DNA from: Desulfohalobiaceae bacterium
GTDB lineage: Bacteria > Desulfobacterota > Desulfovibrionia > Desulfovibrionales > Desulfothermaceae
Direction of reading: 5' to 3'
DNA length: 33,034 nt
NCBI GenBank assembly: GCA_021737615.1
Contig: JAIPDR010000018.1
Coordinates: 1-33,034 of the forward strand
Shown: piece by piece, positions 1 through 16,546 of the stretch
How positions within the stretch are numbered: the stretch's first letter is position 1
How the letters are laid out: each line of letters starts with the position of its first letter
The notes under the pieces: generated by a model
Told to the model about the DNA's origin: nothing
What the model saw: only the letters and a program-made list of their open reading frames with translations
Database searches by the model: none
Made by a program: the position numbers and the translations under genes

Positions 1-700
1 GTTCCATGGCCCTGAGGTTGATCCGGCCGCACTCCAGGACCAGGTTGACCCAGTCGTCCAGGGTGAGATCAAAGCGCAGGGTAGCGGCCAGCCCCTTCTG
101 GATGAATTCGTAGACTTCCTCGTCCTCCTGCCCCAGGATTTGGGCATGGTCGGCATAGGCGGCCAGCCCCTTGATCCCGTATACCAGGGATTCCTTCAAG
201 GACTTGATGTCCTCGTTGGCTTCCGGGTCATTGGGGATGGCGTGCTCACGGCCCTGCTCGATCATGCCGTCCAGGGTCCCGGCCGGTTGAAACGTGGCCG
301 GCCCCTCAGGGAAGTGGGCCTGAGTGCTTTCGTCTTTCAGGCCGACGGCCCGCTTGGCTTTGGTCCACAGGGTCTCGTCCCTGGAGGCCGATTGTTTGAT
401 CTTTTCCTTAAGCCCTTCGCGCAGTTGCACGGCCTTGTTGACATACTCGACAAAGCGTTCCGGGTCGAAGTTGACGTTGGTCAGAGTGGAAAAGGAGGCC
501 TGGCAGGTAAAGACATTGACTTCGGGGTCGTTGATGCCCATCTCTCTGGCCTGCACAGCCACCTGGGACAGGCCTTTCAGAGCGTAGACCAGCAGATCCT
601 GCATGGCCGCGACTTCCGGTTGTTTGCCGCAGACACCGACCTTGGTGCAGCCTTCGCTTTTTGCCGTTTGCTCGCATTGGTAACAGAACATGTCCAACAT
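1..700 (-). CDS. hcp: Hybrid-cluster protein (hydroxylamine reductase), N-terminal part
   Basis: The first ~233 residues of Hcp; the rest lies beyond the left edge. The protein opens with a cysteine-rich segment, Cys6, Cys9, Cys18 and Cys24, the last inside a GVCGK motif, which is the N-terminal iron-sulfur cluster signature of the family. The hybrid-cluster ligands would be in the missing C-terminal part. Hcp proteins are cytoplasmic and act on NO or hydroxylamine during nitrosative stress. The start at 700 is preceded by an AAGGAG ribosome binding site six bases away; a second ATG three codons in is less well placed. An FNR-type promoter lies upstream. The family call is firm; whether the in vivo substrate is NO or hydroxylamine cannot be told. 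Confidence 0.93.
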   Translation of the reverse strand, partial: MLDMFCYQCEQTAKSEGCTKVGVCGKQPEVAAMQDLLVYALKGLSQVAVQAREMGINDPEVNVFTCQASFSTLTNVNFDPERFVEYVNKAVQLREGLKEKIKQSASRDETLWTKAKRAVGLKDESTQAHFPEGPATFQPAGTLDGMIEQGREHAIPNDPEANEDIKSLKESLVYGIKGLAAYADHAQILGQEDEEVYEFIQKGLAATLRFDLTLDDWVNLVLECGRINLRAME

Positions 701-782: not shown

Positions 783-824
783 AGCATACTTTTTCCGGGA
801 TGAGGTTTCTTTGATCCACATCAA
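783..824 (-). promoter_or_regulatory. FNR/CRP-family dependent promoter of hcp
   Basis: Positions 811-824 read TTGAT-CCAC-ATCAA, an exact match to the FNR consensus TTGAT-N4-ATCAA. On the minus strand a -10-like hexamer TATGCT lies at 783-788. If transcription starts near 776, the box is centred at -41.5, the classical position for class II activation. The leader to the hcp start would be about 76 bases. In deltaproteobacteria hcp is commonly controlled by the FNR/CRP-family regulator HcpR; no such regulator gene is in the window. Confidence 0.65.
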
Positions 825-1076: not shown

Positions 1077-2279
1077 ATGGCCCAGTATTTCAAAGACAGG
1101 TTCGAGGTCTTTCGCCAGGTCACCTTCAAGCTTTCCACGCTCCTGGAGGTCAACGAGATCCTGGAAACGATAAGGGAAGAAGAAAAGCGCCACATTCCCT
1201 CTGCCAAGGAAGTCTGCGTCCTGCTCCTGGACCCGGAAGCCCATAAGTATACCAAACCGCTGCAGTGCGCCCTGTACGACAGGCCGCTCAACTGTTTGCT
1301 CTGCAAACGGAACAGGGCAGCGGTCCAAAAAGCCCTGCGCAGAAGGAAGGGCTCCGTTATCTCCAAAAACGAACCGATAATCAGACACGACGGAACCCAG
1401 GTTTCCACAGGGCCGGAAGCAGCCATCCCCGTCTTTGTGGACGGCGAGATCGTGGCGGTCATCAACGTGGTCGCCCTGCCCGGGATCAGGTTCACCAAGA
1501 AGGAATTTCTCCTGATGAAAGACATTTCGGAATTGACCGGGGTGAACATTTTACGGGGCCGGCGGCAGTGGGAAAGCGCCCAGGAAAAGGTCAGGATCAG
1601 CAGCATGCTGTCCCGCCTTTCTCCCTTTGTGCCCAAATCAGTGCGGGAGATTGTGGAAAACAATCCCGATCTATTCAATCAGGACAAGGCGGAAAAAGAG
1701 GTCACGGTCCTCTTTCTGGACCTGGAAGGCTACACCAGACTCTTCAAGAACCACTCAGAACTGGAGGTGAACAGATTCATCGAAGATTTCTTTTCCAACC
1801 TCATCGACCCCATCCACCGCTCGGGCGGGGATATCAACGAGACCGCCGGAGACGGATTGATGATCATCTTTCAGGACGAAGACGCGGGAAAAAACGCAAT
1901 GAATGCAGTCCAGACCGCGTTCGACATCCAGAAAAAATGCGAGGAGTTCAAGAGTGAGCTAAAGGGGGACTTCCATCCCCTGAGCGTGAACATCGGTATC
2001 GATTCCGGGAAGGTCCTTTTAGGGATGAGCCGGTTCAAAGGATCATTCGAGACCAGGATGACCTATACGGCCACCGGTTCGGTGACCAATATGGCGGCCC
2101 GGCTGGCTGACCAGGCCGAGGGCGGGGATATCCTGATCGGGGAGAGCACCAGGGAACTGGTTGAAGGACTGTGGCCGATATTCGACCGCGGCCGGATATC
2201 CTTGAAAAACATGGACGGTCCGGTTCCGGTCTACTCGCTCAAGCCGAGGGGCCATGTCTTCGAGGTGGAGCGGGCTTAA
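1077..2279 (+). CDS. GAF-like sensor / class III nucleotide cyclase
   Basis: A 400-residue soluble signalling enzyme. Residues ~15-160 look like a GAF-type sensor domain and contain an unusual cysteine group (Cys64, Cys73, Cys76). Residues ~205-390 are a class III cyclase catalytic domain. The metal-binding aspartates are Asp215 and Asp259, and the transition-state residues Asn338 and Arg342 are present, so it should be active. The two base-recognition positions are not the adenylate pair Lys/Asp: they read Glu255 (four residues before Asp259) and Thr329 (before Tyr330). Glu at the first position is what guanylate cyclases use, so cGMP is possible. No membrane segment is seen. The gene stands alone and is divergent from hcp. 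ATG 1077 has only a distant GAGGGCGG as ribosome binding site. Confidence 0.85.
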   Translation: MAQYFKDRFEVFRQVTFKLSTLLEVNEILETIREEEKRHIPSAKEVCVLLLDPEAHKYTKPLQCALYDRPLNCLLCKRNRAAVQKALRRRKGSVISKNEPIIRHDGTQVSTGPEAAIPVFVDGEIVAVINVVALPGIRFTKKEFLLMKDISELTGVNILRGRRQWESAQEKVRISSMLSRLSPFVPKSVREIVENNPDLFNQDKAEKEVTVLFLDLEGYTRLFKNHSELEVNRFIEDFFSNLIDPIHRSGGDINETAGDGLMIIFQDEDAGKNAMNAVQTAFDIQKKCEEFKSELKGDFHPLSVNIGIDSGKVLLGMSRFKGSFETRMTYTATGSVTNMAARLADQAEGGDILIGESTRELVEGLWPIFDRGRISLKNMDGPVPVYSLKPRGHVFEVERA

Positions 2280-8527: not shown

Positions 8528-10528
8528 TCAGGTGGTCCTGATCCCAAACTCCTGGAGCTTTCTGTAGAGCGTGCTTCTGGCGATTTTCAGCTCCCGTGCA
8601 GCTTGGGACAGGTTGCCGTCGCACTCCTCCAGGGTGGTCTCGATCATCTCCTTATAGCCGTTTTTCAGGGACCCTAACCGGTTCCTTCCGGCCCGGGCGG
8701 TTTTCGTCGTTCTCAAAGGCAGGTGTTCTTTGTGGATGGTCTCACCCTGACTCAAGAGCAGGGCCCGCTCCGCAACGTTTTCCAATTCCCGGATATTTCC
8801 CGGCCAGGGATATTTTTTCAAGGTCTCAAAGACCTTTTTATCCAGTCTGGGCTTTTGTATCCCGGCCTCGGAGCATCGCCTGTCCAGAATGTGCTGAAAC
8901 AGGAGTTCGATATCCTTGGGTCGATCTTTCAACAGGGGTAGGAAGATCTCAATCACGCTCAAGCGATAGTATAAATCTTTCCGAAAATCCCCTTGTTCCA
9001 CTTCTTCCATCAAATCAGTGTTGCTCGCGGCAATAATCCGAACATCAATCGGGATCGTTCTGGCATCTCCGATGCGCATGATTTCATTCTGCTGCAGGAC
9101 TCTGAGGATCTTGACCTGGAGGTCCAGGGGAAGGCAGTTGATCTCATCAAGAAACAGGGTCCCTTTATTGGCCAGTTCAAACTTGCCGATCATCCCTTTT
9201 TGACGGGCTCCGGTAAAGGCCCCTCCTATATATCCAAACAGCTCGGATTCGATAAGATCTCTCGGGATCGCCGGGCAGGATATGGCCACAAACGGTCCTT
9301 TTTTCCTGTTGCTGTGATTGTGGATGGCCTGGGCGAACAGCTCTTTTCCGGTCCCGCTGGCGCCGATGATGAGCACCCTGGAGTTCGTTTTCGCGGCTAT
9401 CTTGGCGGTCTCGATTTGCTTGGTGAATTTTGAGCTCTTCCCCTTGATATCATTGAACTCATATTTGGCGTAGTTTCCTCCCAGCTTCTTGGCTAGATTC
9501 AGGAGCCTGCTTTTTTCAGATATAGTCATGATCGAGCCGAGGATCTTGAAGGAGGCATTCCGGATGGGATCCACCCGTGCCATGTAGTTCCGGGCTCCAT
9601 CAGGACAAAGAAAAGTGACTTCTGTCGGTTCTATCGGTTCACCGGAGTCAAACCAGTTATCCGTCGTCAAACCGGATTGAATTAAATTTTCAATGCCCTG
9701 TCCGGTGAGGGAATCGGGTTTGACTCCCAGCATCCGGCTGGCGGTCTGGTTCAAATGGGTAATGATCTTATTGTTATCTGTGGCGATGAAACCATCGGTC
9801 ACAGAATTGTAAATGCTGGTCAGCATGATGTTCAAGCGTTGCGTTCTTTCGACCAGGCTCCTCTCCCGCAACTGCATTTCTATGGTTTTTGCCGCGGAGG
9901 TGACCAGAGCCAGGGTATGCTGATGCCGTCCAATTGAAGGGCCGGACAGGGTGAGGGCCCCGAGAAGCCTTTCCTGTACGTCTTTGATGGGTGCGGATGA
10001 ACAGGTCCATGGATGGTGGTACAGGTTGAAATGTTCAGCCCCGGTCAGCTGGATGGCCTTTCCCTCTTCAAGACAGAGTCCGATGCCATTGGTCCCGGCA
10101 TTTTCTGTGGAGCGGATACAACCAGGGATATAAAAATTCTGCTCAGCCATGGCCATGACCTTCCGGTCGCCTTTGACCGCAAGCACCTGGCCTTTCGCGT
10201 CAGCCAACGTTTCAATAAATCCGGTGCCTCGGACGGAAATCTCAATCATTTCCATAATCGGCGTCGCGATCTTGATGAACTCCTGATACTCGGTTAGTAA
10301 TGCAGAGATGCTTTCCTGGGAAAGTACGGGTGGAGAAGGAGGTTTTATGGGATCGAGGCCCAGTTTTAAGCATTTCATCCAGGACCTGAGGACTATGGCT
10401 CGAATTGAATCAGTTGGTGCCGCTTGCCCTCTTTGAACTACCTTTTCCCAGATCGGCTTCACCGGATCAGTGGAATCGATCCCCTGTTTTTTCTTCATCC
10501 GAACTTCATTTTGGGGCGTATCCGTCAT
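8528..10528 (-). CDS. acoR: Sigma-54-dependent activator, AcoR type
   Basis: A 666-residue regulator with the AcoR layout: a GAF-like sensor (~75-222), a PAS domain (~232-345), a sigma-54 AAA+ domain (~358-590) and a Fis-type helix-turn-helix (~622-663). Walker A reads GASGTGKE (389-396), with Ala where most relatives have Glu. The sigma-54 contact loop GAFTGA is intact (436-441), and the arginine-finger region and PWPGNIREL are present. Proteins of this type sense acetoin or a related compound and drive -24/-12 promoters. The gene follows lipA by about 50 bases on the same strand and is divergent from the E1-E3 genes, whose promoter carries a matching -24/-12 element. ATG 10528 has a weak ribosome binding site; the ATG 10 codons later is possible. 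Confidence 0.88.
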   Translation of the reverse strand: MTDTPQNEVRMKKKQGIDSTDPVKPIWEKVVQRGQAAPTDSIRAIVLRSWMKCLKLGLDPIKPPSPPVLSQESISALLTEYQEFIKIATPIMEMIEISVRGTGFIETLADAKGQVLAVKGDRKVMAMAEQNFYIPGCIRSTENAGTNGIGLCLEEGKAIQLTGAEHFNLYHHPWTCSSAPIKDVQERLLGALTLSGPSIGRHQHTLALVTSAAKTIEMQLRERSLVERTQRLNIMLTSIYNSVTDGFIATDNNKIITHLNQTASRMLGVKPDSLTGQGIENLIQSGLTTDNWFDSGEPIEPTEVTFLCPDGARNYMARVDPIRNASFKILGSIMTISEKSRLLNLAKKLGGNYAKYEFNDIKGKSSKFTKQIETAKIAAKTNSRVLIIGASGTGKELFAQAIHNHSNRKKGPFVAISCPAIPRDLIESELFGYIGGAFTGARQKGMIGKFELANKGTLFLDEINCLPLDLQVKILRVLQQNEIMRIGDARTIPIDVRIIAASNTDLMEEVEQGDFRKDLYYRLSVIEIFLPLLKDRPKDIELLFQHILDRRCSEAGIQKPRLDKKVFETLKKYPWPGNIRELENVAERALLLSQGETIHKEHLPLRTTKTARAGRNRLGSLKNGYKEMIETTLEECDGNLSQAARELKIARSTLYRKLQEFGIRTT

Positions 10529-10578
10529 GATCGCTGCCTTTTACTTTAGTTATTGCCGGAAAGACCCATTCCTTAGTT

Positions 10579-11496
10579 TTAGTCCGGGCGATTTCCCGGA
10601 CTTCTCTTTTGCAAAGATTTTTTCATTCCATAGACTGATCCAATTCTGGTTCTTTCAAAAAGTTCTTCGGCTCTGTAGGAGCTCCTGACCAGAGGCGCAC
10701 TGGCCACTTCTGAAAACCCCCGTTGTCTGGCCTCGTGGTCATACCTGGCAAATTCCTCGGGATGCACATAACGGACAACTGGGTGGTGCCTCTGGGATGG
10801 CGCCAGATACTGGCCGATGGTCAGCAGCCGGCATCCGTTTTCACGGAGATCATCCATGACCTGGAGCACTTCTGTCGGAGTTTCTCCGAGCCCGAGCATC
10901 AGGCCTGACTTGGTAATACAGGCTTCGGCGGCCAGTTTCAAGACCCCCAGGGATCGTTTGTAGTCGGCCTGAGGTCGCACAACCCCGTACAATCTGGGAA
11001 CAGTTTCCAGATTGTGATTCAGCACGTCCGGCTTTTGCCTGAGGATGTCATTCAAGGCCCGAGGGCTGCCTTCCAGGTCGGAGATCAAAACCTCGATTCT
11101 GATCCCGGAGTCCTGGTTATGTATGGATTCCAATGTCTTGGCCACATGCCTGGCGCCACCATCTTCGAGATCGTCGCGGCTGACCATGGTCAAGACGCAG
11201 TATCGAAGACCCATTTGGTAAACGGCCTCGGCTATTCGCCAGGGTTCTTGAGGGTCCGGGGGGTGGACCGATGTTTTGCCCACTGCGCAAAAGGTGCATC
11301 TTCGGGTGCATGTCGGCCCAAGAAGCATGAAGGTCGCGGTTCCCCGCTGAAAACACTCGAGCTGATTAGGACAATGAGCCTCAACGCAGACAGTGCACAG
11401 CGCCCTTTGTTTTATCCCGGCAAACAACTCGGTTTCCTTTTTTGCAGCAGGGATTTTGATTTTCAGCCAGGCTGGTTTCTTATCGTCAGTCATCAT
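10579..11496 (-). CDS. lipA: Lipoyl synthase
   Basis: A 305-residue radical-SAM enzyme that inserts two sulfurs into octanoyl groups to make lipoyl cofactors. Both iron-sulfur sites are visible: the auxiliary cluster cysteines in the order C-x4-C-x5-C (37, 42, 48) and the radical-SAM CxxxCxxC (63, 67, 70). The C-terminal RSSY motif (271-274) that contributes the serine ligand is also intact. The start at 11496 (or the adjacent ATG at 11493) follows an AAGGAAG site; the longer frame to 11682 runs into the regulatory region. Placement beside the lipoyl-dependent complex matches the acoS-type gene of Pelobacter acetoin loci. No octanoyltransferase (LipB) gene is in the window. Confidence 0.95.
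   Translation of the reverse strand: MMTDDKKPAWLKIKIPAAKKETELFAGIKQRALCTVCVEAHCPNQLECFQRGTATFMLLGPTCTRRCTFCAVGKTSVHPPDPQEPWRIAEAVYQMGLRYCVLTMVSRDDLEDGGARHVAKTLESIHNQDSGIRIEVLISDLEGSPRALNDILRQKPDVLNHNLETVPRLYGVVRPQADYKRSLGVLKLAAEACITKSGLMLGLGETPTEVLQVMDDLRENGCRLLTIGQYLAPSQRHHPVVRYVHPEEFARYDHEARQRGFSEVASAPLVRSSYRAEELFERTRIGSVYGMKKSLQKRSPGNRPD
10581..10602 (-). other. Hairpin at the lipA stop codon
   Basis: A perfect 8-base inverted repeat (10581-10588 with 10595-10602, six-base loop) covers the last codons of lipA, just before the acoR-type gene. It lacks a T-tract on the minus strand, so it may modulate rather than end transcription. Confidence 0.35.
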
Positions 11497-11601
11497 TTGC
11501 TTCCTTTCCCGGTCGACCGGGGATTTGGTACCCTTGCAGAGGCCCCTGCTAATCCAAGACAGAGCAGCCCTGACCGAGCGTCGGCCGCATTTGCAATGTA
11601 A

Positions 11602-11638
11602 TTGTCCTGATTTGAAACAGTTGTCCTGTTTTCGAACA
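11602..11638. promoter_or_regulatory. Direct repeats, candidate AcoR upstream activator sites
   Basis: Two 18-base copies, 11602-11619 and 11621-11638, agree at 15 of 18 positions and share TTGTCCTG. They are 19 bases apart, close to two helical turns. The second copy is also an imperfect TGTnC...GnACA palindrome. They lie about 150-185 bases upstream of the predicted sigma-54 start, a usual distance for enhancer-like activator sites. Confidence 0.5.
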
Positions 11639-11760
11639 TATGATGAAAATATAGTATTGTGGTAACCAAATGGAATTGTCAAGCAAAGTTTAAAAATAGA
11701 GGTAATCGACTAAGGCCCTTATCTGAAAACTGGTTCTGACAGGTGCTGATTCTGCCATAC

Positions 11761-11777
11761 ACGGTATTGCATTTGCA
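11761..11777 (+). promoter_or_regulatory. Sigma-54 (-24/-12) promoter of the E1-E3 operon
   Basis: GG at 11763-11764 and GC at 11775-11776 have the required ten bases between them, and the -12 part is a full TTGCA (11773-11777). The start would be near 11788, with a 46-base leader to the E1 alpha ATG. A second, poorer GG-N10-GC match lies ~20 bases upstream. The nearby AcoR-type activator supports the call. Confidence 0.65.
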
Positions 11778-11833
11778 GATGTAGGTGGGGCAAAGGAATG
11801 AACACACCAATGTTGTCTTGTCGGAGGATCTCA

Positions 11834-12805
11834 ATGAAACTAAAAATAGATGTGATGGTTGATCTTTACAGGACCATGAAAACTATCCGTGAGTTTGAGG
11901 AGAGGATAGTGGATCTCTACGCAAGAGGTCTTGTGCCGGGGCTTGCGCATCTGTATATCGGAGAAGAGGCAGTTGCCGCCGGAGTCTGCGCCACCCTGGC
12001 CCAGGATGATTATATCACCAGCACGCACAGGGGGCACGGCCATGTCATCGCCAAAGGGGCTGAGTTGAAGCGCATGATGGCGGAACTCTTCGGGAAAAAG
12101 ACCGGATACTGCAAAGGCAAAGGCGGCTCTATGCACATCGCGGACATGGAGGCCGGGATTTTGGGGGCCAACGGCATTGCCGGCGGCGGACTGCCCATAG
12201 CCACCGGCGCGGGCTGGTCGGCCAAATGGCGCAAAACACAGCAAGTTACGGGCTGTTTTTTTGGCGATGACGCCTCCAATAACGGAACATTTCACGAAAG
12301 CCTCAACCTGGCCTCCATTCACAAGTTACCGGTTGTTTATGTCTGTGAAAACAACCTCTACGGGATTTCGGTCTGCCAGGCCAAACACATGCCAATTTCA
12401 GACATCTCAATCCGGGCCACTGCCTATGACATCCCAGGGGTGACAGTGGACGGCAACGACGTGATCGAGGTCTATCAAGCGGCCTTCAAGGCCGTGGAGA
12501 GGGCCAGGGCCGGAGAAGGCCCGACGTTGATCGAATGTAAAACATACCGCTGGCGCGGGCACCACGAAGGAGACCCGAATCAGGGGGGTCGATACAGGGC
12601 CAAGGACGAAATCGAATCCTGGAAGGAGAAATGTCCCATTGCCCGATTAGCCGGGAAAATGATCCAGAACAAGCAAATCACCGAAAAAGGACTGCAGGAT
12701 ATCGATGACCAGGTGGTCCGGGCCATTGAAGAGGCGGTTGCATTTGCCAAACAAAGCGAGTTTCCTGATCTTGATGAGATGTATGAAGATGTTTTGGTGA
12801 ATTAA
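11834..12805 (+). CDS. acoA: Acetoin/2-oxoacid dehydrogenase E1 component, alpha subunit
   Basis: A 323-residue thiamine-diphosphate-dependent E1 alpha. It has the HRGHGH segment (65-70), the KGKGGSMH loop (94-101) and the cofactor motif running from 144 to the Asn pair at 173-174. That motif reads G-D-D-A rather than the usual G-D-G-A. With E1 beta it decarboxylates or cleaves the substrate and passes the acyl unit to lipoyl-E2. The short length and operon with an AcoR-type activator and lipA favour acetoin dehydrogenase over pyruvate dehydrogenase, but E1 alpha of the two is hard to separate. The start at 11834 has a GGAGG site; an upstream in-frame ATG (11798) lacks one. Confidence 0.85.
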   Translation: MKLKIDVMVDLYRTMKTIREFEERIVDLYARGLVPGLAHLYIGEEAVAAGVCATLAQDDYITSTHRGHGHVIAKGAELKRMMAELFGKKTGYCKGKGGSMHIADMEAGILGANGIAGGGLPIATGAGWSAKWRKTQQVTGCFFGDDASNNGTFHESLNLASIHKLPVVYVCENNLYGISVCQAKHMPISDISIRATAYDIPGVTVDGNDVIEVYQAAFKAVERARAGEGPTLIECKTYRWRGHHEGDPNQGGRYRAKDEIESWKEKCPIARLAGKMIQNKQITEKGLQDIDDQVVRAIEEAVAFAKQSEFPDLDEMYEDVLVN

Positions 12806-12817
12806 GGGGAAGGGAAG

Positions 12818-13795
12818 ATGCGAGAGATCACCTATTGCGAAGCGTTGAATGAGGCCTTGCGGGAATCCATGCGCACCGATGAACGGGTTGTGATCCTGGG
12901 CGAGGATGTCGGGTGCTACGGAGGAATATTTCAGATTACCAAAGGGTTGCAGGACGAGTTCGGACCGGACAGAGTGGTGGACACGCCTATCGCCGAGGCC
13001 GGGTTCGTCGGGGCCGGAGTTGGGGCCGCCCTGACCGGCATGCGCCCGGTGGTGGAGATCATGTTCATTGATTTCACCACGGTCTGCATGGACATGATCA
13101 TCAACCAGATGGCCAAGATGCGCTACATGTTCGGAGGCAAGGGGAAAGTGCCCATGGTCCTCAGAGTGAATATCGGCGCAGGCCGGGGAACGGCGGCTCA
13201 GCATTCTCAGAGTTTTCACTCCCTGTTCATGCATATTCCCGGTCTCCTGGTGGCTGTGCCGGCTACGGCCTATGACGCTAAAGGCCTGCTCATGGAGGCC
13301 ATTCAGAACGACAACCCGGTTATCTTTGTCGAGCACAAGAGGTTGTACAATACCAAGGGGGATGTGCCTGAAGAGAGCTACACCATTCCTTTCGGCCAGG
13401 CCGAAATAAAAAGAGCGGGCACAGACGTAACGGTGGTGGCCACTCATGCCCTGGTCACCGAGGCCCTGAAAGCGGCAGAAGAGGCGGCCGAGAAGGGAAT
13501 AGAGGTGGAAGTCGTCGACTTGAGGACCCTGGTCCCTCTGGACAGGAAAACAATTCTTGATTCGGTCAAAAAGACCGGACGGCTCCTGGTGGCTGATGAG
13601 GACAACATCACCTGCGGGGTCGCCTCGGAGGTATCGGCCCTGGTTGCAGAAGAGGCTGTTTACGCCTTGAAGGCGCCGATTCTCCGCAATGCTTCCCCGG
13701 ATACGCCGGTTCCTTTTTCTCCGCCTCTGGAAAAGGCCTATATGTTCGGGCAGGAACGGCTGATGCAATCAATCCGGAATCTCATGAAATACTGA
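12818..13795 (+). CDS. acoB: Acetoin/2-oxoacid dehydrogenase E1 component, beta subunit
   Basis: A 325-residue transketolase-like E1 beta. LGEDVG (28-32) and DTPIAEAGFVG (55-65), with the catalytic Glu60 that activates the thiazolium, are intact. His129 in AAQHSQSFHS and the C-terminal transketolase domain (~200-320, VVDLRTLVPLD) are typical. It forms the alpha2-beta2 E1 with the preceding gene, from which it is separated by 12 bases with a strong AAGGGGAAGGGAAG site. Same uncertainty as E1 alpha about acetoin versus pyruvate as substrate. Confidence 0.87.
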   Translation: MREITYCEALNEALRESMRTDERVVILGEDVGCYGGIFQITKGLQDEFGPDRVVDTPIAEAGFVGAGVGAALTGMRPVVEIMFIDFTTVCMDMIINQMAKMRYMFGGKGKVPMVLRVNIGAGRGTAAQHSQSFHSLFMHIPGLLVAVPATAYDAKGLLMEAIQNDNPVIFVEHKRLYNTKGDVPEESYTIPFGQAEIKRAGTDVTVVATHALVTEALKAAEEAAEKGIEVEVVDLRTLVPLDRKTILDSVKKTGRLLVADEDNITCGVASEVSALVAEEAVYALKAPILRNASPDTPVPFSPPLEKAYMFGQERLMQSIRNLMKY

Positions 13796-13808
13796 GCACG
13801 GGGGGAGT

Positions 13809-15143
13809 ATGGCTACAGAAGTTGTCGTCCCCATGCTTGGGGTCACGGTGGAAAAGGGAAAGATTGTTGAATGGCTCAAATCTGAAGGCGATCAGGTCGA
13901 GAAAGGGGAAGCCCTGTTCGTGGTCGAGGCCGAGAAGGTCACGACAGAAGTCGAAGCTCCGGCCACGGGCGTTCTGGCCAAAATTTTCATACCAGCGGAC
14001 AGGGAAATGCCGGTGTTGTCTCTGGCCGGATTGATCATCGAGCCAGGAGAAGAGATCCCGGAGGAATATAGGAAAGTAGCTTCGCCCGCTCCACCGGAAA
14101 AGGGTGGAGGATCCTATCCGGAGCAGACTCCGGATAGGAAAAAAAACGCACCTGAGGCCAGGGATACTGCAGTCAAGGCCGTACCGGCCGCCAGAAGGCT
14201 GGCCAGGAGAAAGGAGGTCGACCTGGCAGGTCTGTCAGGGACCGGACCTGACGGAATCATCCGCTACCAGGATGTTGAACAGGCAGCCGTTCAAGCACAA
14301 GAAACAACAGCCAAAGCCTCGACTCTGGCCTCGCGTTTTGCCGCCAAACAAGGGGTTGACCTGGACCAGGTCCAGGGAACGGGCGTTCGCGGACGCATTA
14401 TGCAAAACGATGTGCAGGAGGCCTCGTCAGAACAGACAGCGCCCGGTTTAGGCAAGGTCATCCCCATGAATTCCATGCGCCAAGTCATTGCCAGGCGCAT
14501 GTCGGAGAGCGCCTTCACCGTCCCGCACATTTCCTTTTTTTCGGATATCGTTATGGATCCGCTTCTTGCCTTTCGCAAGGCCATTCTGCCGGATTTCGGG
14601 GAGCAATTTGATCTCAGGCCTTCTGTCAATGATTTTCTCATCAAAGCGGTTTCTTTGAATATTCTGGATTTTCCTATGCTCAACGCACAGCTGAAGGAAA
14701 ACGAAATTCATATCATGCCCGAGATCAATGTCTGTCTGGCTGTGGCCTTGCCGGAAGGGCTGATTGTTCCGGCCCTTTCCCAGACAGACCAGGCGGGGTT
14801 CGCGGACCTGGTCAGACAGCGACGGGACCTGGTGAACCGGGCCAAATCAGGGACATTGACCATGGACGAGCTGCAGCGGGGGACCTTTACCATCTCCAGT
14901 CTGGCCCAGTTCGATATCACCCATTTCACGGCCATCATCAATCCGCCCCAGAGCGGAATTCTATCGGTGTGCAAGGCCAGAGATGAACTTTACCTGGATG
15001 ACGGCCAGGTCAAGACCCGAAAAGTCATGACCCTCGGTCTATCCGTGGATCACCGGATTATCGACGGGGCCATGGCGGCGGATTTCCTGCAGCATCTCAA
15101 AAAAAGGCTTGAAAGGCCGCAGATGACCTTTCTTTGCGTCTAA
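13809..15143 (+). CDS. acoC: Dihydrolipoamide acyltransferase E2 with two subunit-binding domains
   Basis: A 444-residue E2. The lipoyl domain occupies ~1-80, with Lys43 in the hairpin turn as the lipoylation site. A charged, Pro/Gly/Lys-rich linker follows (90-122). Then come two peripheral-subunit-binding-like domains, ~124-157 and ~170-203, each with the Arg-rich first helix, a V-D-L turn and a G-T-G loop; most E2 proteins have one. The catalytic domain is ~215-440, with DHRIIDG (414-420, His415). It transfers the acyl group from the lipoyl arm to CoA and forms the core of the complex. Gaps to E1 beta and E3 are 13 and 20 bases. The linker DNA carries a perfect hairpin. Confidence 0.88.
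   Translation: MATEVVVPMLGVTVEKGKIVEWLKSEGDQVEKGEALFVVEAEKVTTEVEAPATGVLAKIFIPADREMPVLSLAGLIIEPGEEIPEEYRKVASPAPPEKGGGSYPEQTPDRKKNAPEARDTAVKAVPAARRLARRKEVDLAGLSGTGPDGIIRYQDVEQAAVQAQETTAKASTLASRFAAKQGVDLDQVQGTGVRGRIMQNDVQEASSEQTAPGLGKVIPMNSMRQVIARRMSESAFTVPHISFFSDIVMDPLLAFRKAILPDFGEQFDLRPSVNDFLIKAVSLNILDFPMLNAQLKENEIHIMPEINVCLAVALPEGLIVPALSQTDQAGFADLVRQRRDLVNRAKSGTLTMDELQRGTFTISSLAQFDITHFTAIINPPQSGILSVCKARDELYLDDGQVKTRKVMTLGLSVDHRIIDGAMAADFLQHLKKRLERPQMTFLCV
14112..14139 (+). repeat. Perfect 12-bp inverted repeat inside the E2 linker
   Basis: Arms 14112-14123 and 14128-14139 are exact reverse complements with a four-base loop, followed by a run of eight A (14139-14146). It encodes part of the flexible linker, in frame. 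Confidence 0.8.
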
Positions 15144-15163
15144 GCGGCTTGAATGGAGGAAAA

Positions 15164-16546
15164 ATGTATGACTTGGTAGTCGTCGGCGGCGGCCCCGGCG
15201 GTTATGTGGCCGCCATTCGCGGAGCCCAAGCAGGATTGAAGACCGCGCTCGTGGAAAAAGAAGCCCTGGGCGGCACCTGTCTGAACAAGGGCTGCATCCC
15301 CACGAAGTGTTTGGTTCATGATGTCAACCTGTATGACCAGTCCAGAAAGTCGCGGGTCTTGAGCGGCCGGGAACACCTGCAGATCGACCTGGACGCTGCG
15401 GTCAACCGAAAGCGTCAGGTGGTCGATCGCCTGGTGGGTGGTGTTGCTTCTTTGCTCAAAAAGCAAAGAGTTGAGGTTTTCAAGGGAACCGCCAAATTGA
15501 TCGAGCCGGGGAGAATCCGGGTCGACGGCGGGCAGGAATCCAGCCGGACTCTGGAGGCCTCCTGGCTCATCCTGGCCACGGGTTCCAGGCCGTCCGTGCC
15601 GGGATTCATCGATGTGGACGGGTATTTTGTCCAGACTACGGATCAGGCCCTGGAGGCCACGAAGGTTCCCCGGCAGGTGGTCATCATCGGGGCTGGGGTC
15701 ATCGGCATGGAGATGGCCGGTATATACAGCAGGATCGGGGCCGGGGTGAGCATTGTGGAGATGTTGCCGGACATCCTGCCCGGCGAGGACCGGGACATCA
15801 GGAAGGTCATGACCAGGGAGCTGAAGAAAGCCAAGATCAGGCTCCACCTCGGGGCAACGGTCCGCGAAGTCAATGGTCAGCACCGGGAAGTCCGGTTCCA
15901 GGATAACAAGGGGGAGGAGCAGGTCCTGGCCTGCGATCTGGTCATCGTGGCCACCGGCAGGTCCCCGGTGATGACCGGACTTGAGGCGGTCGAACCGGGA
16001 CTCGACATGGAAGGTCCCTTTATCCGGGTCGATGCATTTCAGCGGTCCAACCTGCCCGGGGTCTATGCCATCGGAGATGTGGTCGGCGGGATGATGCTGG
16101 CCCATAAGGCGTCGGCCGAGGCGGAGGTCGCCGTGGACCACATCCTGGGCAAAAAAAAGCGGCTCAACCATCGCAACATCCCTCGCTGCGTCTGGGGCCT
16201 GACCGAAATAGGCGCTGTCGGGCTGTCCGAGGAAGAGGCGATTGAGGCCGGTTACGTCGTCAAGACCGGGACCTTTCCCGTGAAAGCCAGCGGAGCGGCC
16301 CAGGCCATGGACAGTCCCCAGGGGATGGTCAAGATCGTGGGCCAGCGCGAGACCGGAGAAATTTTGGGGGTGCACATCATCGGCCCCCGCGCCACGGACC
16401 TCATCGCCGAAGCCGCAACCACCATGTCCATGGAAGGGGCGGTGGAGGACCTTTATGAGACGGTCAAGCCCCATCCGACCTTGAGCGAAGCCGTTATGGA
16501 GGCCGCCATGGACTGGAACACGAGGGCCATACATAAAACAGGATAA
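15164..16546 (+). CDS. lpdA: Dihydrolipoamide dehydrogenase E3
   Basis: A 460-residue FAD-dependent disulfide reductase that reoxidises the dihydrolipoyl arm of E2 with NAD+. The FAD motif GGGPGG is at 8-13. The redox-active disulfide is Cys39/Cys44 in GGTCLNKGC. An NAD-binding GAGVIG lies mid-protein, an AIGDVVGG FAD motif follows, and the C-terminal HPTLSE carries the His/Glu active-site pair. The start at 15164 follows GGAGGAAAA directly; the frame extends 10 codons further upstream but into the E2 stop region. It completes the E1-E2-E3 set. Confidence 0.93.
   Translation: MYDLVVVGGGPGGYVAAIRGAQAGLKTALVEKEALGGTCLNKGCIPTKCLVHDVNLYDQSRKSRVLSGREHLQIDLDAAVNRKRQVVDRLVGGVASLLKKQRVEVFKGTAKLIEPGRIRVDGGQESSRTLEASWLILATGSRPSVPGFIDVDGYFVQTTDQALEATKVPRQVVIIGAGVIGMEMAGIYSRIGAGVSIVEMLPDILPGEDRDIRKVMTRELKKAKIRLHLGATVREVNGQHREVRFQDNKGEEQVLACDLVIVATGRSPVMTGLEAVEPGLDMEGPFIRVDAFQRSNLPGVYAIGDVVGGMMLAHKASAEAEVAVDHILGKKKRLNHRNIPRCVWGLTEIGAVGLSEEEAIEAGYVVKTGTFPVKASGAAQAMDSPQGMVKIVGQRETGEILGVHIIGPRATDLIAEAATTMSMEGAVEDLYETVKPHPTLSEAVMEAAMDWNTRAIHKTG

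Follow-up and report, generated by a model that had tools for sequence, protein, structure and literature searches.

A conserved family of GAF-class III cyclases in sulfate-reducing bacteria, predicted to make cyclic GMP

Cyclic GMP is a rare signal molecule in bacteria and, to our knowledge, few bacterial guanylate cyclases are known, their signals and receptors being mostly open. The locus described here raises the question of whether a sulfate-reducing bacterium has such an enzyme and, if so, what might govern it and what might read its product. The window (the whole stretch of 33,034 nucleotides, from a Desulfohalobiaceae bacterium, that was analysed) had been proposed to encode a nucleotide cyclase, possibly a guanylate cyclase. 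The gene is indeed that of a nucleotide cyclase, a 400-aa open reading frame on the + strand in which residues 204-387 match PF00211 (Pfam search, E 2.5e-17). Its parts are the following (counts of 44 include the window protein itself):

1077..2279, + strand: GAF-class III cyclase gene, predicted guanylate cyclase (400-aa ORF; 44 full-length relatives)
1077..1616, + strand: sensor half, residues 1-180, GAF plus flanking helices (GAF profiles; AlphaFold pLDDT 90.7)
1686..2237, + strand: class III cyclase catalytic domain, residues 204-387 (PF00211; fold match to CyaB and Cya2)
1839..1841, + strand: codon of Glu255, first base-recognition residue (invariant, 44/44)
2067..2069, + strand: codon of Thr331, second base-recognition residue (invariant, 44/44)
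2088..2102, + strand: codons of Asn338 and Arg342, transition-state residues (Asn 43/44, Arg 44/44)

Together with PF00211, the window protein keeps both metal residues (Asp215 and Asp259) and the Asn338/Arg342 pair that mark class III nucleotidyl cyclases, and the original prediction was right to call the metal and transition-state residues intact. VIA-align of the cyclase domain model gave Z 25.1 to the adenylyl cyclase CyaB and Z 22.9 to Cya2, the guanylyl cyclase of Synechocystis (PDB 2w01), all rows with Z >20 being one fold. The full-length AlphaFold model had a pTM of 0.50. Pfam gave GAF and cyclase domains only, with no H-NOX haem domain in the window protein; the GAF match was weak for this protein by itself and firm once the sensor halves of the family were searched.

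The case for GTP as substrate lies in the residues that recognize the base. The original prediction held that the Lys/Asp adenine pair was replaced by Glu255 and Thr329. In the sequence alignment Glu255 does occupy the first base position, opposite the Glu of Cya2 and the Lys of CyaB and CyaC, which we take to be class IIIb adenylyl cyclases (Lys/Thr). Thr329, though equally invariant, falls in the Asp column of ‘DYT’, two residues away from the second base position. That position belongs to Thr331, seven residues ahead of Asn338, where CyaB and CyaC have Thr and Cya2 has Gly. Since Thr is usual at this place in the cyclases compared (24 shorter homologues are Lys/Thr), only Glu255 departs from the adenylate pattern, and the alignment makes the window enzyme one of the Lys/Thr type in which Lys has become Glu. 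The Lys expected of a class IIIb adenylyl cyclase is Glu in 44/44 relatives. Glu255 lies four residues ahead of the second metal residue Asp259, a spacing that the part of PMC2576301 available to us also gives for the Chlamydomonas guanylate cyclase (Glu523/Asp527). According to the accessible text of PMC4215837, guanylate cyclases have C, S, T, H, A or G as second base residue, a list that includes Thr331. In Cya2, again from the accessible part of the source, the change Glu488Lys by itself turns GTP into ATP specificity (PMC5995499), in agreement with the guanine-selecting role that had been attributed to a Glu at the first site. Taken together, the published list and the Cya2 switch would make GTP the likely substrate, short of proof.

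How general this arrangement is can be judged from its relatives. Protein and profile searches provided 44 distinct full-length sequences after removal of duplicates. They were found in 3/11 genomes of the host family, in 21/395 genomes drawn from the phylum (match E 1e-100 or better) and in 28/85 genomes of one class (that of G284). Asp215, Glu255, Asp259, Thr331, Arg342 and the sensor cysteines 47, 64, 73 and 76 are present in all 44 aligned sequences, and Asn338 in 43, the remaining one having Ile. The Glu/Thr pair was also found in twelve shorter relatives with different N-termini or cut by contig ends. The other rows that were not full-length had Lys/Thr (24), Lys/Ser (6), Gln/Ala (5), Lys/gap (3), Asp/Ser (2) and, once each, Gln/Thr, Ser/Ala and Lys/Glu. 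In a tree of 73 of the 100 rows, with the full-length ones thinned, all 29 Glu/Thr rows were set apart from the rest by a branch of SH-aLRT 100. Cya2 (Glu/Gly) fell outside this clade, which suggests separate origins for its Glu and that of the Glu/Thr enzymes, with the caveat of the long branch on which Cya2 sits. There was no match among plasmids at E 1e-20 and none among viral contigs, and a scan of genome contigs for close relatives, reaching outside the phylum, returned a single locus, in the record of the congeneric genome G001. A literature search, with subscription journals mostly outside its reach, found no published description of such a protein. As far as sequences can tell, this is a cyclase family conserved in one group of sulfate-reducing bacteria, and its conservation puts the observation beyond chance. 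With Glu in 44/44 relatives, a single clade and the Cya2 switch, guanylate cyclase is the best reading of the enzyme and a likely one, the specificity itself being predicted.

The host genome (G000, assembly 90% complete) has seven PF00211 matches, none of them with the usual Lys plus Asp, Thr or Ser. Their base pairs are Glu/Thr (the window cyclase), Gln/Ala (three), Asp/Ser, Lys/Glu and Asp/Arg. The Asp/Ser protein has a plant-type 2Fe-2S ferredoxin domain fused to the class III cyclase (L182:1575-2510, on contig G000:C85).

The next question is what the sensor half might respond to. The original prediction had pointed to three closely spaced cysteines (64, 73 and 76). All three are invariant; the count is four, as Cys47 has to be added.

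1215..1217, + strand: codon of Cys47 (invariant, 44/44)
1266..1268, + strand: codon of Cys64 (invariant, 44/44)
1293..1304, + strand: codons of Cys73 and Cys76, C-X2-C (invariant, 44/44)

The whole pattern is C-X16-C-X8-C-X2-C, and Cys288 is outside the invariant columns. GAF_2 was matched by 44/44 sensor halves (E at or below 0.01, with the window protein falling just short of the curated cut-off) and the Pfam GAF profile by 42/44. The AlphaFold model of the 180 sensor residues (mean pLDDT 90.7) aligned with GAF structures, the highest Z being 15.8 (145 residues, rmsd 2.8). Its closest folds include the GAF domains of PDE5/6 and many others, at Z 12.5 to 15.8; the Foldseek and VIA matches to GAF subtypes differ by a few Z units at most, so that no ligand can be named from the fold. 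Profiles of free-methionine sulfoxide reductase matched the GAF weakly (E 0.003 to 0.17), and the aligned stretches have the cysteine of ‘IAC’ where the profile has no cysteine; in that reductase the ‘IAC’ cysteine is presumably the catalytic one. Selenocysteine in place of a sensor cysteine was considered and rejected, because the in-frame TGA of two relatives is an ordinary stop after residue 391. A profile of the sensor found 36 matches in the 85 genomes of the class, 32 of them strong and in cyclase ORFs of 392-466 aa, the rest being one 95-aa fragment and three weak matches (E 2.7e-12 to 5.3e-10). In the host genome the only match was the cyclase itself (1/1). In the genomes searched this sensor is thus fused to the Glu/Thr cyclase alone, and the two are inherited together.

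The sensor region of the Staphylococcus aureus sensor kinase AirS is also a GAF domain. From what could be consulted of PMC4601167, AirS carries a [2Fe-2S] cluster on four cysteines that is reactive with S-nitrosoglutathione, NorR has a mononuclear iron in its GAF, and both N-terminal sensors react with O2/NO. Four conserved N-terminal cysteines (44/44) are found here too, but the AirS spacing, C-X7-C-X-C-X17-C in the accessible text, is a different one, albeit of the same kind, and the output is a kinase in AirS, a transcription activator in NorR and a cyclase here. The most likely role of the four GAF cysteines would be to hold a metal centre, whether an iron-sulfur cluster or Zn, or to serve as a thiol switch. 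We regard cysteine-based redox or NO control of the cyclase as plausible, at about even odds. A rival that we take seriously, while leaning against it, is that the enzyme is a guanylate cyclase whose cysteines hold a structural Zn and whose GAF senses a small ligand such as a nucleotide, a peptide or a thiol. It would fit the PDE5/6 GAFs among the closest folds, and the candidate receptor described below adjoins a gene similar to glutathione synthetase and another for a peptide-binding protein. It fits less well with the surroundings of the gene, where a regulatory box, hcp, an hcpR-like gene and nitrogen-oxide neighbours recur in several lineages.

The original prediction also held that the cyclase is divergent from a nitrosative-stress gene, and this gene is hcp. 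Two features upstream of the cyclase are concerned:

2..700, - strand: hcp (hybrid cluster protein; Prismane, hydroxylamine reductase; Pfam), divergent, cut by the contig end at base 1
811..824, strand not assigned: TTGATCCACATCAA, exact FNR/DNR/HcpR-type box in the intergenic region common to hcp and the cyclase (motif scan)

In the accessible part of Rodionov et al. (PMC1274295) the HcpR box of delta-proteobacteria other than Desulfovibrio is TTGACN4GTCAA and that of DNR/FNR is TTGATN4ATCAA. The degenerate form TTGAYN4RTCAA, the sequence mark of an HcpR/FNR-type regulon, is present upstream of the cyclase and occurs 24 times in the 3.84 Mb host genome, versus 3 for the reversed control; further boxes precede a second hcp and the hcpR-like gene of contig C83 (open frame at most 100 nt from the box). 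An exact box within 350 nt upstream was found in 4/44 relatives, i.e., the window, its congener G001, G002 and G117. The G002 locus is a rearranged version of that in the window: a gene for a flavodiiron-like ODP protein takes the divergent place of hcp, and beyond it come a second box and hcp. In G117, which belongs to another family, an exact TTGACN4GTCAA box is located ~205 nt upstream of the start codon of the cyclase. Downstream on the cyclase strand come NapC/NirT and a multihaem cytochrome, and the distance to hcp is 4.6 kb. In 6/44 relatives, from two genera, the gene immediately ahead of the cyclase is hcpR-like and has the same orientation. In one family a molybdopterin oxidoreductase gene directly upstream nearly touches or overlaps the cyclase (8/44; L117:4340-6403 and seven similar loci). 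Both arrangements are restricted to family f54. In several lineages, as we see it, the neighbourhood points to redox or nitrogen oxides, but there is no fixed operon.

It may be, on the other hand, that the box and the proximity of hcp are incidental and that the cyclase is unconnected with nitrosative stress. We consider this somewhat doubtful, yet it deserves attention. No hcp was found in the stretch read for 40/44 relatives (the stretches being unequal in length and some of them short contigs), and 40/44 had no exact box within 350 nt; two of the four cases with hcp nearby come from sister species and have one arrangement in common. The box may also be there for hcp only. Against coincidence are the rearranged locus of G002, where box, flavodiiron-like gene and hcp are found again, and that of G117, with box, multihaem cytochrome and hcp in another family. 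The redox or NO input that had been imagined for this enzyme gains from the four invariant cysteines, the FNR/HcpR-type box and the hcpR-like partner, and loses from the rarity of hcp nearby (4/44); as a whole it is better supported than a first reading of the letters could show.

The window has some other features of note. A perfect 34-bp palindrome (818-851; 17-nt arms without spacer, A5/T5 flanks) overlaps the box and, by its look, is a bidirectional terminator or else a strong hairpin between the two divergent promoters; G001 does not have it in intact form. Downstream of the cyclase (2425-2576) there is an imperfect inverted repeat, its 20-nt arms separated by 112 nt, which may be a small mobile element. 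At 8528-16546 a sigma-54 activator with GAF/PAS and a radical SAM gene are followed by an E1 alpha/E1 beta/E2/E3 set, an acetoin or pyruvate dehydrogenase-like cluster.

If the enzyme makes a cyclic nucleotide, something in the cell should bind it. Proteins that bind cNMP as a rule have an Arg-Ser/Thr-Ala motif. The CRP-like cGMP receptor that the original prediction proposed to look for was not found among the 12 cNMP-binding matches of the host genome; the hcpR-like regulator was discarded, having GEVPVFAGKTFPA in place of the phosphate-binding Arg motif. Two of the 12 were tested by co-occurrence. A tandem cNMP-binding protein (PRTAS motif) was rejected as a general receptor, being present in 7/85 genomes of the class and 1/28 carriers of the cyclase. 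The other, a membrane protein of 1116 aa encoded at C235:10953-14300 of the host genome, with a TLC/MFS-like part, HEAT repeats and a C-terminal cNMP-binding domain, fared very differently. In the same class it was matched (E 1e-40 or better) in 21/28 carriers vs 8/57 other genomes, and in 17/20 vs 3/28 when only genomes at least 90% complete were counted. Outside this class a whole-protein match (E 1e-30) was obtained in 15/16 carriers vs 7/48 others, a set of 64 out of 71 genomes with hand-picked, not random, controls; the other seven were carriers of the first class that were negative at the stricter limit, and the whole-protein query found the protein in two of them. Five of the seven non-carriers with the protein have a Glu/Thr cyclase of another architecture. 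When any Glu/Thr cyclase is counted, the protein is in 20/24 genomes vs 2/40 without, a genome being scored as lacking the pair when it gave no strong match, with the residues of weaker matches left unread.

The contrast is also seen within families (3/3 carriers vs 0/5 others in f1, 7/7 vs 0/2 in f21, where one genome has the cNMP domain as a separate adjacent gene, L228, and 15/17 vs 2/10 in f54 at 90% completeness). Family f96 runs against the link, with the protein in 0/2 genomes that have a Glu/Thr cyclase. Other class III cyclases matched in 38 of the 40 genomes without a Glu/Thr enzyme, so the membrane protein does not follow cyclases in general. The motif GEMALF...RSA(T/S) was found in 16/16 loci examined, though several of these represent one and the same protein; the motif does not tell which ligand would be preferred. 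We found no literature on this protein in a search that mostly did not reach subscription journals. The link is correlative, and as a candidate receptor the protein is a good lead. At L218:1865-6301 its gene is followed by the glutathione-synthetase-like and peptide-binding (SBP_bac_5) genes. This arrangement, TLC gene first, is shared by three species of the genus (G000, G001 and G002) and G191. In G227 the glutathione-synthetase-like homologue comes directly after the Glu/Thr cyclase, and the TLC gene is found 5.6 kb upstream.

These distributions bear on the substrate as well. An adenylate cyclase, or one of dual ATP/GTP use, that tolerates Glu at the Lys position and holds adenine by Thr331 seems unlikely to us. 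Thr331 is the usual residue of Lys/Thr enzymes and CyaB ranks above Cya2 as structural match, within what is all one fold. Also, the Ma1120 mutant K101E retained 40% or more of its ATP activity at pH 9 (PMC4215837), and Glu by itself is no proof of GTP specificity. Nevertheless, the same source has K101E nearly devoid of ATP activity at pH 7.5, with GTP activity raised; the Glu here is invariant (44/44); and the absence of the TLC-HEAT-cNMP protein from 38/40 genomes without a Glu/Thr cyclase, though 38/40 hold other class III cyclases, suggests that the Glu/Thr enzyme has a messenger of its own. Production of cCMP or cUMP, as by Pycsar cyclases, is very improbable: the base residues are unlike those of adenylate cyclases and PADLOC models of PycC do hit the catalytic domain (best E 2.9e-17), as we would expect given that they include a class III catalytic domain, whereas Glu suits the amino group of guanine and no recurrent TM or TIR effector was found beside the 44 cyclases (PADLOC itself covering two window neighbours only).

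The guanylate cyclase reading also finds parallels in known systems. With Cya2 the window enzyme shares the class III fold, a homodimer-type active site and the Glu at the first base position, on which the proposed specificity is based; Cya2 differs in its second residue (Gly instead of Thr), in its CHASE2/membrane sensor, as far as the accessible text describes it, and in its place outside the Glu/Thr clade. CyaB and CyaC are similar in catalytic fold and in Thr at the second position, CyaB being the best match in both sequence and fold, but their Lys is Glu in all 44 relatives. The NO-sensitive soluble guanylate cyclase of animals has a related catalytic fold, and the proposed logic, from NO or redox to cGMP, would be alike; it senses through a haem H-NOX domain, none of which was found in the window protein (Pfam). 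XC_0250 of Xanthomonas campestris is a bacterial class III cyclase shown to make cGMP; in the accessible part of the paper it has no Asn/Arg pair, carries TPR repeats instead of a GAF and acts through a cNMP-GGDEF protein as receptor (PMC3770947). Its catalytic domain makes the family similar to known guanylate cyclases, while sensor, base pair and context set it apart.

The best explanation as a whole, to which we give a probability of about 0.6, is a soluble guanylate cyclase under redox or NO control by a four-cysteine GAF, with the TLC-HEAT-cNMP protein as receptor. What we have directly in hand are the sequence, its conservation, the domain folds as models, the box and the co-occurrence; GTP specificity, cofactor, signal, co-regulation with hcp and receptor we infer. 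The C-terminal domain would act as a class III dimer in which Asp215 and Asp259 hold two metals and Asn338 and Arg342 stabilise the transition state, while Glu255 (facing the guanine amino group) and Thr331 (the carbonyl) would select GTP. A redox, oxygen or nitrosative signal received at the cysteines may be passed to the cyclase through the long helix 141-184. In the host genus the cyclase would be tied to hcp by their common intergenic region with its FNR/HcpR-type box, and the product would probably be read by the TLC/MFS-HEAT-cNMP-binding membrane protein encoded elsewhere in the genome.

In this way the cyclase may couple a membrane transporter to redox or nitric oxide stress. Whatever its signal, one conserved family joins a catalytic signature and a predicted receptor with a four-cysteine sensor that, among the genomes searched, accompanies the Glu/Thr cyclase alone. 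A bolder and rather speculative version is a complete pathway in anaerobic sulfate reducers, convergent with the animal NO-guanylate cyclase, in which an iron-sulfur GAF sensor on four cysteines would act through a guanylate cyclase and cGMP on a TLC/MFS-HEAT-cNMP transporter linked to the glutathione-synthetase-like gene. If the NO or redox input were true, the family would represent a bacterial counterpart of NO-cGMP signalling made of other parts.
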